64,000 bases of DNA, taken from NCBI GenBank assembly GCA_005502925.1, contig SCPD01000006.1, positions 124,001 to 188,000 of the forward strand, given 5' to 3'. Numbering within the stretch: the first letter of the stretch is position 1; every line of letters starts with the position of its first letter. The DNA is from Rhizobiales bacterium Y(2018). Lineage in GTDB: Bacteria; Pseudomonadota; Alphaproteobacteria; Rhizobiales; Aestuariivirgaceae. The notes beneath the pieces were generated by a model. That model made no database searches and was not told where the DNA came from. It saw only the letters and a list, made by a program, of their open reading frames with translations. Below are positions 53,288 to 57,246 of the stretch, in pieces. A program made the position numbers and the translations under genes.

Positions 53288-53422
53288 TCCCAGTCCGATA
53301 TCTTTATTGACGTAACGGAATAGCGGAGACTAATGTTATCCCGCTTCTCCTGCGAAGGCGGGGCTTTCGAGGGCAGATGATCTCATACCAAGCTACGCCG
53401 GTTGTCCGGTTGTGCGGGAGCA

Positions 53423-56101
53423 ATGCTCGTGACCAAGATCATATGTCGTCCGAAGGTGCTGACGCTCGCTCAGCACGAGAATTTTCTGCGCCGCAGCGTC
53501 GAGATCAATCCGGCAAATGAGGAGGAGCGACGCACGGTCGAGCGGACCCCCACCGGGCGGCGCGGCGGGCCACGGCGCCTTACCCTTATCGTCGGGCGTA
53601 AATGGCCGAAGTCCGGCGTCCGGCTCAGCGTCCAGTTCCTCGACACGCCGCCGCGCGATCTGCGCGAGCGCATTCTGTTGCATATGAATGCCTGGGCGAA
53701 GACCGCCAATATCCGCTTCGACGAGACCAACGGTGTCGGACAGGTCCGCATCTCGCGGCTCGATTCGCCGGAGGACATGGCGGGTTATTGGTCGTATGTC
53801 GGCACCGAAATTCTGGGAATCGAGGAGGACCAGCCGACCTTCAATCTCGACGGCTTCACGATGCGTACGTCGGAATCGGAGTTCAAGCGCGTGGTGCGCC
53901 ATGAGGCGGGCCATACGCTCGGTTTCGATCACGAACATATGCGGGCGGAGCTGATCAAGAAGATCAATCGCAAGAAGGCCTTCGCTTTCTTCGATCAGGA
54001 TCAGGGCTGGGATGAAAAGGAGACGACCGAGCAGGTTCTGACGCCTCTGTCCAAGTCCTCGATCATGGGAACGCGGGAGGCCGACCCGCTGTCGATCATG
54101 TGCTACGAGATTCCCGGCGCCATCACCAAGGACGGCAAACCCATCGTGGGCGGTCGCGACATCAATCCGCGCGACTTCGAGTTTGCCGCCAGGATCTATC
54201 CAAAGCCGGCCCGCCGCGACATGCCGGATCCCGAACCTGAACCCGCGCCAGAAGTGCCGGCCGTCGCGCCGCCGCGCGCGGTGCGCTCTCCTGTTGCGGG
54301 CGACACGTTCCATATCGTCGTCTTCGATCGCTTCACGCATGATGCGCCGGCGACCGGTACTGAAACGGGGCCAGTGAAATATGTCCGCGTCTATGCGAGC
54401 TATGCCGGCGCCAGGGTCACCGTCCCGATGCGGGTGCGCGCCGACAAGGGCGAGGAGCCCACCGCATTCGGAACGATCATCCGCGTGCATGAGCGCATTC
54501 AGAGCTACACCAACCGGGAAAGCGGAACCCTGCCCGACGATAAGGAGATGATCGAGTTCGGCACCAGTCTCTTCGAGACGATCTTTCAGGGCGATGTGCG
54601 CCGGCTCTATGACGAGGCGCGCTCGCGCCAGCATGGCAACAGGCTGGATTTCGTCTTCACCTCCATGGTGCCGTGGATCGCCGAGAAGCCGTGGGAATTC
54701 GCCTATGATGCGTCACGGCGCAGCTTCCTCGCGACCGAGGACGTGCATTTCATCCGCAATGTGCTGACCGCCGTTCCGGCCGATGACATTCCGCCCAGCA
54801 CCGGCCCGCTGCGCATCCTCGTCGCGTCGGCGCAACCGGTCGGTTTCGGGCAGCTGTCGATCCAGCAGGAGGAAGAAGTCATCCGGCGCGGCTTCGATCC
54901 GTTGATCAAGGCCGGTCTCGTCGAGGTCGTGCCGCTGGCGCGCGCGACGCCGCGGAGCATTCACGCCGCTCTGTCGACCGGAGAATTCGCCATCGTGCAT
55001 TTCATCGGCCATGGCGCGTTTGACGAGGAGACACAGGAAGGCTCACTCGTGTTCGAAAACGATCGCGGCGGCGAGGCCCGTCTCGGTGAACGCTCGGTGC
55101 GCGAGATCTTCTGCCAGCGCGGCATCAAGCTGGTCTTCCTGAACGCCTGCCAGACCGGTTCGGGGGGACGGGCGGATTTCAACAAGGGACTGGCGCAGTC
55201 GCTGGTGGCGCATGGCCTGCCGGCGCTTGTCGCCAACCAGTACAGTGTGCTCGATGTCTCGGCCACCGAGTTCGCCCGGCATTTCTACTGGGCAGTGGCC
55301 AATGGCTTCAGCGTCGGCGAGGCGGCGCGCGAAGCCCGCATCGCGGTCAATTATTCGCTGCAAGGCGAGATCATCGATTGGGCCGTGCCTGTCGTCTATG
55401 CCCGCGATCCCGACATGACATTGCGTCTGAAAACGGACAGTGCCGCCGCGGCCTCGGTCACAGCGGCGCGGGCGCTGAGGCGCGGCGCCACGGATGGCCG
55501 GCCGGTCAAGGTCGCGGTCTGGGACATCGACAGCATTTTCCCGTCGCTTAGCGCGACGCTCGATCGCATGAATGCCGGGCAGACCCATATCGGCTTCGAG
55601 CTCGTCGATCTCTCGGCGCCGGTCGATGCCTGGGACCTGAAGAAGCGGGCCAGGGACGGCACGCCCTATCTGTGGGCCGAGCCCTTCGCGAAGCGCCTCG
55701 CCGGCTTTCCTCTCGAGCTGCATGTCAATGTGCTGGCCTGTGTTACCCGGCATTGGCTGCGCTCCAACAAGGATTTCGACATCTATTCCTGGTGGTCCGG
55801 TGAAAATGGACCGCCGGTCTTGATCTTTTCCTGCGCCGGCTTCGAAGGCATGTCGGCGGAAGGACCGGCGACCGACCGCGCCGTCGCCAATGCGCTGGTG
55901 CAGGCTCTGGCGGGTTTCCTGGGCCAGATCGATACGCATAAGAGAGGCTCCAAGGATTGTCCGATGGCCAATAATGCCGAGCGGAATATTGCCCATATCG
56001 CCGGCATGCAGGCCTTCGATGCGGACTGCCGGCGCAAGCTCGAGAAGAAGATTACAGACGAGCTTCCGGCTCTCGAGGCGCTGCTGAAGGTCTTTCGCTG
56101 A
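53423..56101 (+). CDS. metzincin zinc-protease / CHAT caspase-like protease fusion protein
   Basis: About 892 residues, no signal peptide or membrane helix. Residues ~55-260 form an astacin/matrixin-like metzincin domain with the full zinc motif HEAGHTLGFDH (160-170) and a Met-turn SIMCYE (224-229). A Pro-rich linker (~265-290) leads to a CHAT domain. Its WEFAYDASRRSFLA segment (~424-437) precedes the catalytic histidine in VHFIGHG (His530) and cysteine in FLNACQTGSGG (Cys576). The last ~200 residues fit no family I know. The start is ATG 53423 (alternatives TTG 53402, GTG 53429 with better GGGAG spacing). It is coupled by TGATG to a serine hydrolase gene. Two protease active sites in one chain suggest a proteolytic switch or effector; this is inference. 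Confidence 0.85.
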   Translation: MLVTKIICRPKVLTLAQHENFLRRSVEINPANEEERRTVERTPTGRRGGPRRLTLIVGRKWPKSGVRLSVQFLDTPPRDLRERILLHMNAWAKTANIRFDETNGVGQVRISRLDSPEDMAGYWSYVGTEILGIEEDQPTFNLDGFTMRTSESEFKRVVRHEAGHTLGFDHEHMRAELIKKINRKKAFAFFDQDQGWDEKETTEQVLTPLSKSSIMGTREADPLSIMCYEIPGAITKDGKPIVGGRDINPRDFEFAARIYPKPARRDMPDPEPEPAPEVPAVAPPRAVRSPVAGDTFHIVVFDRFTHDAPATGTETGPVKYVRVYASYAGARVTVPMRVRADKGEEPTAFGTIIRVHERIQSYTNRESGTLPDDKEMIEFGTSLFETIFQGDVRRLYDEARSRQHGNRLDFVFTSMVPWIAEKPWEFAYDASRRSFLATEDVHFIRNVLTAVPADDIPPSTGPLRILVASAQPVGFGQLSIQQEEEVIRRGFDPLIKAGLVEVVPLARATPRSIHAALSTGEFAIVHFIGHGAFDEETQEGSLVFENDRGGEARLGERSVREIFCQRGIKLVFLNACQTGSGGRADFNKGLAQSLVAHGLPALVANQYSVLDVSATEFARHFYWAVANGFSVGEAAREARIAVNYSLQGEIIDWAVPVVYARDPDMTLRLKTDSAAAASVTAARALRRGATDGRPVKVAVWDIDSIFPSLSATLDRMNAGQTHIGFELVDLSAPVDAWDLKKRARDGTPYLWAEPFAKRLAGFPLELHVNVLACVTRHWLRSNKDFDIYSWWSGENGPPVLIFSCAGFEGMSAEGPATDRAVANALVQALAGFLGQIDTHKRGSKDCPMANNAERNIAHIAGMQAFDADCRRKLEKKITDELPALEALLKVFR

Positions 56102-57246
56102 TGCGCCATGGGCTGGCCGCGCTGATCGGCGCGGCGTTCGTTGCGCTTTGGCCGCTCTCGTCTTCAGCGCAGGACCGACTATGCGGCGTTCCGGTTTCTG
56201 GCATCGATGACTGGCGGAGCGCGACACAAGCGGAAGCCGGATTCGATCCACAAAAGTTGTGCGCCTTGATCGACGAACTCGACCGCCTCGACTCCAATAT
56301 ACATGGGGTCGTCGTGGTCCGTCACGGTTCACTGATCTTCGAGCACTATCGCACCGGCCAGGATGAAAGATGGGGCACGGATCAGGGCCAGATCGAGCAT
56401 GGGCCCGATGTGAAACATGACCTGCGCTCGGTCAGTAAAAGCGTAACGTCGCTTCTCGTCGGCATCGCGCTCGACCGCAAGACCATCAGTGATGTCGACC
56501 AACCCGTCTTCAGCTTCTTTCCCGACATGGCGGCTTTGCGCACGCCAGAGAAGGACCACATCACGCTGCGCCATCTTCTCACCATGGCGTCCGGCCTCAC
56601 CTGGGATGAGACGCGCCCCTATGACCGGGAGGCGAATGACGAGCGCCGGATGCTCTATTCGACCGATCCCTATCGCTTCACGCTCGGCAAGCCGGTCGCT
56701 GCGAAGGCCGGCGCCAAATGGAACTACAGCGGCGGCGACACGCAGCTCCTGGCCGGCGTGCTGCAGCGATCGAGTGGCACATTCATTGCCGACTTCGCAA
56801 GAGAAGCCTTGTTCGCGCCGCTCGGCATCCGTGATTTCGAATGGCTGAAGATGCCGGGCAATGGCGAGCCCGCAGCGGATTCCGGCGTGAGATTGCGGCC
56901 GCGCGATATGGCCAAGCTCGGCGAGCTCGTGCTGCGGCGCGGACTTTGGAACAAGCGGCAGGTCGTTTCGCAAGCCTGGATCGATGAGTCGACGCACACC
57001 CATATGGCGCATTTCGACAGTTATCCATCGATCGGCTACGGATATCAATGGTGGACGGACTACGAGGACAAGGGCGGCCGGCGCTCGTCGTGGATTTCCG
57101 CGCAAGGGTTGGGCGGCCAGCGCATCTATATTCATCCCGGGCTCGATCTCGTCGTGGTGATCACGGCGGGGTTCTATGCCGATGACCGCCAGGACACGCT
57201 GCCCTATGAGATCTTCAGCACATATGTGATCGCCGCGATCCGCTAG
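56101..57246 (+). CDS. exported serine hydrolase, class C beta-lactamase family
   Basis: 381 residues. Signal peptide ending near SSSAQ (residue 24). Serine hydrolase motifs: SVSK (110-113) as SxxK, YSG (209-211) as the tyrosine motif, and GGQRIYIHP near the C-terminus in the HxG/KTG position. The family includes esterases, DD-peptidases and beta-lactamases. The ATG overlaps the stop of the metzincin-CHAT gene by one base (TGATG), so the two proteins are made together although one is cytoplasmic and the other exported. The role in the pair is unknown. Confidence 0.87.
   Translation: MRHGLAALIGAAFVALWPLSSSAQDRLCGVPVSGIDDWRSATQAEAGFDPQKLCALIDELDRLDSNIHGVVVVRHGSLIFEHYRTGQDERWGTDQGQIEHGPDVKHDLRSVSKSVTSLLVGIALDRKTISDVDQPVFSFFPDMAALRTPEKDHITLRHLLTMASGLTWDETRPYDREANDERRMLYSTDPYRFTLGKPVAAKAGAKWNYSGGDTQLLAGVLQRSSGTFIADFAREALFAPLGIRDFEWLKMPGNGEPAADSGVRLRPRDMAKLGELVLRRGLWNKRQVVSQAWIDESTHTHMAHFDSYPSIGYGYQWWTDYEDKGGRRSSWISAQGLGGQRIYIHPGLDLVVVITAGFYADDRQDTLPYEIFSTYVIAAIR

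Follow-up and report, generated by a model that had tools for sequence, protein, structure and literature searches.

An astacin-type zinc protease and a CHAT protease joined in one chain in Aestuariivirga: a candidate two-stage protease switch

Introduction

Among described proteins, the closest counterpart of the zinc protease considered here is myroilysin, an M12A metzincin in which, according to passages of PMC9848320, a propeptide cysteine acts as a latency device. The same passages state that astacin propeptides and substrates run in opposite directions, so that a molecule cannot cleave its own propeptide, and that the maturation bond is shielded, such that unfolding or preliminary cuts are needed. 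On the side of the caspase-type enzymes, an excerpt of PMC11229360 reports that SAVED-CHAT confers immunity through a proteolytic cascade, it is proposed that in some bacterial conflict systems a constant caspase domain brings about activation through autopeptidase action (passages of PMC8195603), effector release by proteolysis is proposed for several caspase-containing conflict systems (passages of PMC7159879), and orthocaspases are reported to cleave on the C-terminal side of positively charged residues (excerpt of PMC6426788). Here we describe a protein in which the two enzyme classes occur in a single chain. It is encoded in a stretch of 64,000 nucleotides (the window; positions 124,001 to 188,000 of contig SCPD01000006.1, assembly GCA_005502925.1) from Rhizobiales bacterium Y(2018), a member of Aestuariivirga, and its 892 residues begin with a short propeptide and continue through an astacin-type (M12A) zinc protease and a linker to a CHAT domain and a C-terminal domain. 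The fusion protein is real, intact and under selection; as a tentative reading, we propose that it constitutes a cytoplasmic two-stage protease switch, in which the CHAT domain would unlock a latent zinc protease.

Results

Architecture of the fusion protein

The gene and its parts are as follows (positions in the window, all on the plus strand).

53423..56101, plus strand: fusion protein gene, ATG at 53423, stop at 56099-56101, 892 amino acids
53423..53593, plus strand: propeptide-like segment, residues 1-57 (from the alignment and a hydrophobicity scan; residue 1 of the myroilysin structure 5zjk aligns near residue 60)
53444..53446, plus strand: Cys8, candidate cysteine switch (C-R-P-K-x-L), from conservation
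53555..53569, plus strand: GRRGG, residues 45-49, candidate activation site, in fused proteins only
53594..54217, plus strand: astacin-type (M12A) metzincin catalytic domain, residues 58-265 (Pfam Astacin and myroilysin matches)
53900..53932, plus strand: zinc-binding HEXXHXXGXXH (HEAGHTLGFDH), residues 160-170, followed by the astacin-type Glu171
54092..54106, plus strand: Met-turn SIMCY, residues 224-228 (Met226, Tyr228)
54218..54313, plus strand: linker rich in proline and acidic residues, residues 266-297, with low model confidence and the highest dN/dS (ratio of nonsynonymous to synonymous substitution rates) of the parts
54314..55414, plus strand: CHAT region with N-terminal lobe, residues 298-664 (Pfam, Foldseek and profile)
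55010..55012, plus strand: CHAT catalytic His530 (HFIGHG, residues 526-531), from motif and alignment
55148..55150, plus strand: CHAT catalytic Cys576 (NACQ, residues 574-577), from motif and alignment
55460..56098, plus strand: C-terminal domain, residues 680-892, conserved in both relatives that carry the fusion (L007 and L008)

The start at ATG 53423 agrees with the relatives, in which the conserved cysteine lies mostly 4 to about 20 residues past the start codon, with longer leaders before it in L015 and L058-L060 (both by eye; L numbers denote loci collected for comparison). An alternative in-frame TTG start at 53402 adds seven residues and gives the 899-residue numbering of some searches. 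Open reading frame, motifs, Pfam matches and the predicted fold of the zinc domain agree on one 892-residue chain with both proteases, as the first-pass annotation had read it, and HEXXHXXGXXH, Met-turn, His530 and Cys576 stand at the residues it had numbered. Three NCBIfam matches far below their cut-offs were set aside: beta-glucuronidase AbsR1 (2.2e-8), HetF (3.8e-4) and serralysin (5.2e-3).

Both protease domains are under purifying selection. Between the window protein and its 97% identical counterpart in Aestuariivirga sp. YIM B02566 (L007, same genus), dN/dS is 0.069 for residues 1-57, 0.077 for the zinc domain, 0.063 for the CHAT region, 0.171 for the C-terminal domain (11 synonymous changes), 0.341 for the linker (five synonymous changes) and 0.128 for the hydrolase encoded downstream. 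The structure prediction, made from 25 rows of which just three extend past the zinc domain, gave a whole-protein model with a mean predicted local distance difference test (pLDDT) score of 57.3 and a predicted template modelling score of 0.36, in which the relative placement of the domains is not reliable. Mean pLDDT over ten-residue blocks is 62-98 across residues 61-260 and 55-88 across residues 461-640, falling to 28-61 in the N-terminal lobe of the CHAT region (residues 301-450) and 23-61 in residues 681-892; residues 267-346 lie below 50.

The zinc protease and its propeptide

The zinc domain is of the astacin type and closest to myroilysin, apparently without the export typical of astacins. 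Its HEXXHXXGXXH motif has a chance expectation of 6e-5 in a protein of such composition. The Pfam Astacin match is barely above the cut-off (4.9e-5, 23.5 bits against 22.5), and phmmer against the PDB retrieves myroilysin at 4.6e-22. Across a 27-row alignment, His160, Glu161, His164, Gly167, His170 and Glu171 are invariant, as are Ser224, Met226 and Tyr228 of the S-x-M-x-Y turn (27 of 27 rows in each case). That the HEXXH region folds as a metzincin is borne out by the model, in which 15 of the 20 ten-residue blocks of residues 61-260 have a mean pLDDT of at least 85 and for which Foldseek finds myroilysin 5zjk_A at E 2.0e-16 (template modelling score 0.88 on the target, root-mean-square deviation 1.9) and BMP1 (3edg) at E 2.1e-6.

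Excluded from the 27-row alignment were L019, the frame of which leaves the family near the Met-turn (cysteine and zinc motif present); L020, the same gene as L007; L068, the same stretch as L067; the source-genome copies L001, L037 and L063; and the distant homologues at 25-35% identity (L002-L004, L021-L030, L033 and L035). Ahead of Trp61, Cys8 is the sole invariant position (consensus C-T-P-K-x-L-P), and it is also invariant in 25 of 25 and 16 of 16 rows of two other alignments, the sets of which overlap with the first. The distance from this cysteine to Trp61 is 53 in the window protein and ranges from 25 to 71 across rows, the shortest propeptide (L071, 25) retaining the cysteine. By conservation and by analogy with myroilysin, Cys8 is a candidate cysteine switch of the same kind.

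The sequence GRRGG occurs in all three fused rows and in none of the 24 unfused rows, and the last 20 residues before Trp61 contain six arginines in the fused proteins and 0-4 in the 24 unfused rows. Residue 6 of 5zjk, a chain taken as mature myroilysin because of its length, pairs with residue 58 (65 in the 899-residue numbering), and the family profile pairs position 54 with residue 2; these pairings place the mature start at about residues 53-60, directly after GRRGG.

The window protein probably has no signal peptide, and it is apparently cytoplasmic. In a crude scan it shows no strongly hydrophobic N-terminal stretch (highest 12-residue mean 1.07), and in the first 45 residues of the 27 rows the corresponding maxima range from 0.27 to 1.88 with no clear signal peptide; six rows (L015, L058-L060, L066 and L075) were trimmed, leaving their very first residues outside the scan. 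The two highest means (L070 and L074) come, by eye, from stretches after the cysteine. Three tandem paralogues in the source genome (25-32% identity) have Sec-type signals by eye and no cysteine between signal and catalytic domain. In C35 of the source genome (L091, 9580-12891) three tandem exported-looking astacin-like genes stand beside CHASE2-type sensor-like and FecR-like genes (by eye).

The CHAT module

The assignment of the second protease rests mainly on sequence. Pfam CHAT (PF12770) matches at 9.2e-32 with 111 bits against a cut-off of 24, spanning 387-664 in the 899-residue numbering, and His530 and Cys576 with their surroundings are kept in all five aligned CHAT proteins, which supports the earlier reading of a CHAT domain with its dyad in place. 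The two residues align with HFIGHG and LNAC of the SAVED-CHAT structure 8tl0. This structure is found by phmmer at 0.0048 and, with a profile of the five CHAT proteins, at 1.4e-13, followed by DdvA at 5.6e-4. Foldseek of the model gives 8tl0 at E 2.6e-7, DdvA at 6.6e-6 and 2.2e-5, metacaspase 9 at 2e-3 and caspases at about 5e-3; PorX unexpectedly ranks above the caspases (3e-4 to 1e-3), so the caspase matches taken alone are weak. The PADLOC SAVED_CHAT match (1.8e-10) is limited to residues 454-670, corresponding to model positions 101-270 of 498, and scans of Pfam and NCBIfam at E up to 1 returned no SAVED match.

Outside the fusion, the nearest CHAT relative found is WP_051420469 of Ruegeria pomeroyi DSS-3, 41.8% identical over residues 323-667. 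It has the same CHAT module and N-terminal lobe, with DUF7379, which we take to be an alpha/beta-hydrolase type domain, where the window protein has its metzincin; its CHAT domain stops 23 residues before the protein end and no third domain follows. The front enzyme of the CHAT module thus seems exchangeable. On the Ruegeria megaplasmid (L057, 6183-13044), the DUF7379-CHAT gene is followed by a SIR2_2-AAA gene and then by a probable HNH nuclease gene (by eye), with an IS5-like transposase adjacent; this is a candidate defence cluster, presumably resembling Septu-type defence in its arrangement.

The C-terminal domain

The C-terminal domain is possibly a sensor or partner-binding part. It is 51% identical between the window and Binatia proteins, with conserved cysteine and histidine residues, and has no Pfam match up to E 10; its predicted structure reaches a mean pLDDT of 40.8, which is not usable. 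A degenerate archaemetzincin, guessed at from a CPM...FDADC pattern, found no support: Pfam gave nothing, comparison of a very shallow three-row profile with the metzincin and CHAT alignments gave probabilities of 0.2 and 0.7 per cent, respectively, and the source genome has no match to PF07998, the family of the archaemetzincins.

Discussion

A possible order of events

The most economical mechanism, and the one we favour without regarding it as established, is that CHAT activation comes first and release of the zinc protease second. The astacin-type domain would be made as a latent zymogen, its propeptide lying along the active-site cleft with Cys8 on the zinc, as conservation and the myroilysin precedent suggest. 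Its own enzyme could not easily cut such a propeptide, so that a second protease would be required, a role that the fused CHAT domain could fill. Once activated, probably via something sensed by the C-terminal domain, the CHAT domain would cut the arginine-rich GRRGGPRR immediately ahead of the mature start, perhaps along with the linker, in the same or a neighbouring molecule. Active zinc protease would thereby be freed inside the cell, and proteins might then be degraded either unspecifically or at defined targets, in the manner of caspase-type suicide or defence systems. Latency, cutting order, trigger and outcome are all inferred. The suggestion in the first-pass annotation that one protease may activate the other is in this respect plausible, and is strengthened by the conservation of Cys8 and by the fusion-specific GRRGG, with activation itself still conjectural. 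The fuller formulation, in which a complete cascade is contained in one polypeptide, with a caspase-like activator of a cysteine-switched astacin zymogen and the C-terminal domain as its sensor, is possible though rather doubtful. We know of no earlier case of a caspase-type enzyme unlocking a metzincin.

Several observations weigh against this order of events. The fused rows form one clade (support 100/99), so GRRGG arose no more than once or twice in evolution, counts for little as independent evidence, and may reflect lineage or composition bias, the window having a guanine plus cytosine content of 62%. Residues 1-10 of the model have a mean pLDDT of 36 (residues 1-15 all lie below 50), and the model does not place Cys8 at the zinc. 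The profile alignment to zymogen myroilysin begins past the propeptide, and the two cysteines are not aligned to each other. Unfused relatives have Cys8 without an attached CHAT domain; should this cysteine be a switch, proteases other than CHAT must be able to release it. None of ten neighbouring proteins matches a PADLOC defence family.

Alternative readings

The presence of the same Cys8 in relatives without CHAT would also suit a scheme in which the zinc domain is freight: the CHAT domain would cut the linker (residues 266-297) and let the zinc protease diffuse to its substrate, the propeptide being removed by a host protease or by autocatalysis, as it must be in the unfused relatives. The linker is modelled with low confidence and is the fastest-evolving part (dN/dS 0.34, from five synonymous changes), and this scheme would parallel the proteolytic effector release proposed in the passages of PMC7159879. 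By eye, however, the linker is not conserved between the window protein and the Binatia protein, and no fixed cutting site is visible, and we regard the scheme as unlikely.

Less likely again is that the main role of the CHAT domain is to join zinc domains, as a scaffold for assembly or signalling, with marginal peptidase activity. According to passages of PMC7159879, about 70% of the caspase domains that occupy the effector position in vWA systems lack activity; by the titles of the structures, active SAVED-CHAT forms a filament (8tl0) and the transmembrane anti-sigma factor of 8rot and 8rw5 is a CHAT protein, and these roles indicate that CHAT domains serve in signalling too. Against this stands the dyad itself, His530 and Cys576 being conserved with their surroundings in five of five proteins.

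The order of action could also be the reverse of the one we favour, the metzincin acting as sensor or first protease that activates or trims CHAT, and CHAT being the real effector. The CHAT protein of Craspase is described as the protease of its complex, and the zinc domain family also exists independently. Yet, judging from Cys8, it would be the zinc protease that is silenced, and the equal constraint on both domains does not decide the matter; we consider this arrangement improbable.

The downstream hydrolase and the neighbourhood

The gene that follows the fusion is the following.

56101..57246, plus strand: exported-looking PF00144 serine hydrolase of 381 residues, its ATG lying in the fusion stop (TGATG, one-base overlap)

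The product matches PF00144 at 1.6e-31, with SVSK at 110-113 and YSG at 209, and its N-terminus resembles a Sec signal by eye. The first-pass annotation had noted an SxxK serine hydrolase overlapping the fusion gene by one base, which TGATG, PF00144 and SVSK confirm; the functional coupling that it drew from this finds no such support. In another genome of the genus (G057), the SorC regulator and transporter genes beside the hydrolase are the same, and nucleotide comparison shows no fusion-like DNA upstream of it. No hydrolase homologue lies in the 3.2 kilobases before or the 3.0 kilobases after the Binatia fusion (L008), where the contig ends. Of 100 relatives, 15 have a hydrolase homologue at E 1e-60 or better, while a full-protein query finds the fusion in 2 of 69 family genomes (source genome included in both counts). 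Since the hydrolase is present without the fusion in G057 and elsewhere, the fusion gene was probably inserted ahead of a hydrolase gene that was already there; the two fusion-bearing Aestuariivirga genomes align only from about 53306, and the upstream boundary differs. As a partner the hydrolase was rejected on synteny and on the Binatia locus, conserved co-occurrence being absent, and it is probably not part of the fusion system.

That the two products cooperate on either side of the envelope, perhaps in the metabolism of the cell wall or of extracellular peptides, is accordingly very improbable: the one-base overlap and the adjacency of the pair in both fusion-bearing Aestuariivirga genomes speak for it, and the G057 and Binatia loci, the unequal distributions and the seemingly different compartments of the two proteins speak against it.

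In the 11 neighbours and the hydrolase, Pfam recognises thiolase, RraA-like, SorC-type regulator, AraC-type regulator and sugar-transport type genes, alongside proteins of unknown function; MoxR, vWA or similar domains have no Pfam match in the 11 window neighbours or in one Binatia neighbour. Rfam finds one tRNA in the whole window and nothing else. The neighbourhood thus lends no support to a defence island, yet leaves room for a conflict role.

Distribution of the fusion and of the zinc protease family

The fusion was found in two Aestuariivirga genomes and, at full length and 61-63% identity, in one Candidatus Binatia contig; it appears rare in the samples of larger groups on which this statement rests. 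A non-exhaustive peptide-pattern scan of 84,980 species genomes with six short query peptides yielded 13 relatives, namely the two fusions L007 and L008 and 11 zinc-domain-only proteins at 46-60% identity, from Acidobacteriota, Betaproteobacteria, Nitrospira, Hymenobacter, Gemmatimonadetes, Methylocystis and Myxococcales. Plasmid records add zinc-domain relatives from Fischerella and two Paraburkholderia, and viral contigs add 12. Among 398 genomes of the phylum, a CHAT-plus-C-terminal query matches in 25, with only the match in the source genome extending past the CHAT region, and a zinc-domain query at E 1e-30 finds the source genome only. Among 337 Alphaproteobacteria, the C-terminal profile finds one, the source genome, and the CHAT-module profile two, the source genome and one weak match.

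No phage or plasmid was found to carry the fusion as a whole, plasmid and phage records having no full-length match. The viral contigs held no relative by the CHAT or C-terminal parts or by the CHAT alignment, and the C-terminal part gave one insignificant match among plasmids (E 0.9). Linkage of unfused zinc protease and CHAT genes was discarded: by BLAST, one of 14 unfused non-viral loci (L009-L019 and L058-L060) has a CHAT gene nearby, which was treated as chance. At L013 (912-7179, Gemmatimonadetes), a TPR-CHAT protein is encoded near the unfused astacin-like gene, on the opposite strand.

The cysteine-bearing astacin-like protease also occurs in phage-type contigs (L064, L065, L067 and L074). 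Its companions include a portal protein in L067 and L065, a terminase in L074 and, in L064, an HNH nuclease; L067 also has a weak head-maturation match (coordinates L067 2-925 and 5809-6717; L065 10234-11949; L074 8939-11035); the scanned genes of L070, L072 and L073 gave no match. These proteases are possibly a virion-associated or lysis-released family. A recurrent neighbour (L067 7043-8629, L070 7755-9533 and L071 3206-4588, with linked open reading frames in L064, L065, L066, L068, L073 and L075) groups nine loci by BLAST with single linkage, where L067 and L068 represent one and the same stretch; it has no Pfam match in the two scanned, and a CxxCH haem-type motif in the three read.

Comparison with known systems

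The first-pass annotation knew of no description of a CHAT domain fused to an astacin-like domain together with a third domain, and this stands as far as the open-access literature searched, in which we found neither a metzincin-CHAT fusion nor a characterised family with one. If the proposal is true, one molecule unites two classes of protease that usually act at different steps of a cascade, so that single mutations (Cys8, GRRGG, Cys576 or Glu161) could show which step comes first, and this single cytoplasmic chain would be a complete cascade and would belong to an intracellular astacin-like zymogen family that is also found in phages. It would further draw attention to a widespread, apparently signal-less, cysteine-bearing astacin-like family in several phyla and in phage structural regions.

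With myroilysin (M12A; PDB 5gwd, 5czw and 5zjk) the window protein shares the catalytic domain, HEXXHXXGXXHE, the Met-turn and, on the passages describing it, the propeptide cysteine; the myroilysin family is described as extracellular, its solved chains have no CHAT domain, and identity in the Foldseek alignments is 28-29%. With SAVED-CHAT of type III-B CRISPR and of cyclic oligonucleotide-based antiphage signalling systems (CBASS; 8tl0) it shares the CHAT domain, and differs in having no recognised SAVED domain, a metalloprotease in the same chain as its partner and ten neighbours without PADLOC match. DdvA, a transmembrane anti-sigma factor by the title of its structures (8rot and 8rw5), likewise shares the CHAT domain, with no metzincin seen. 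TPR-CHAT (Csx29) of Craspase is described as having CHAT under the control of another module, whereas the window protein has no TPR match in Pfam.

The caspase-containing conflict systems of Kaur et al. (2020, with a 2021 follow-up; VMAP, EACC1 and EACC2) are described, in passages of these papers, as combining a constant caspase with exchangeable partner domains, with rare metallopeptidase effectors on the vWA component and a pairing of caspase and alpha/beta-hydrolase in VMAP systems (PMC7159879). The window protein differs in having neither a MoxR nor a vWA match in Pfam among the neighbours scanned, and those passages do not mention a metzincin-CHAT chain. Nearest in its CHAT module is the DUF7379-CHAT protein of Ruegeria (WP_051420469), in which the same module, about 42% identical, is found with a different front domain, a difference at the third domain and different neighbours; if the proposal is true, the astacin-type protease would be another exchangeable front enzyme for CHAT proteins.

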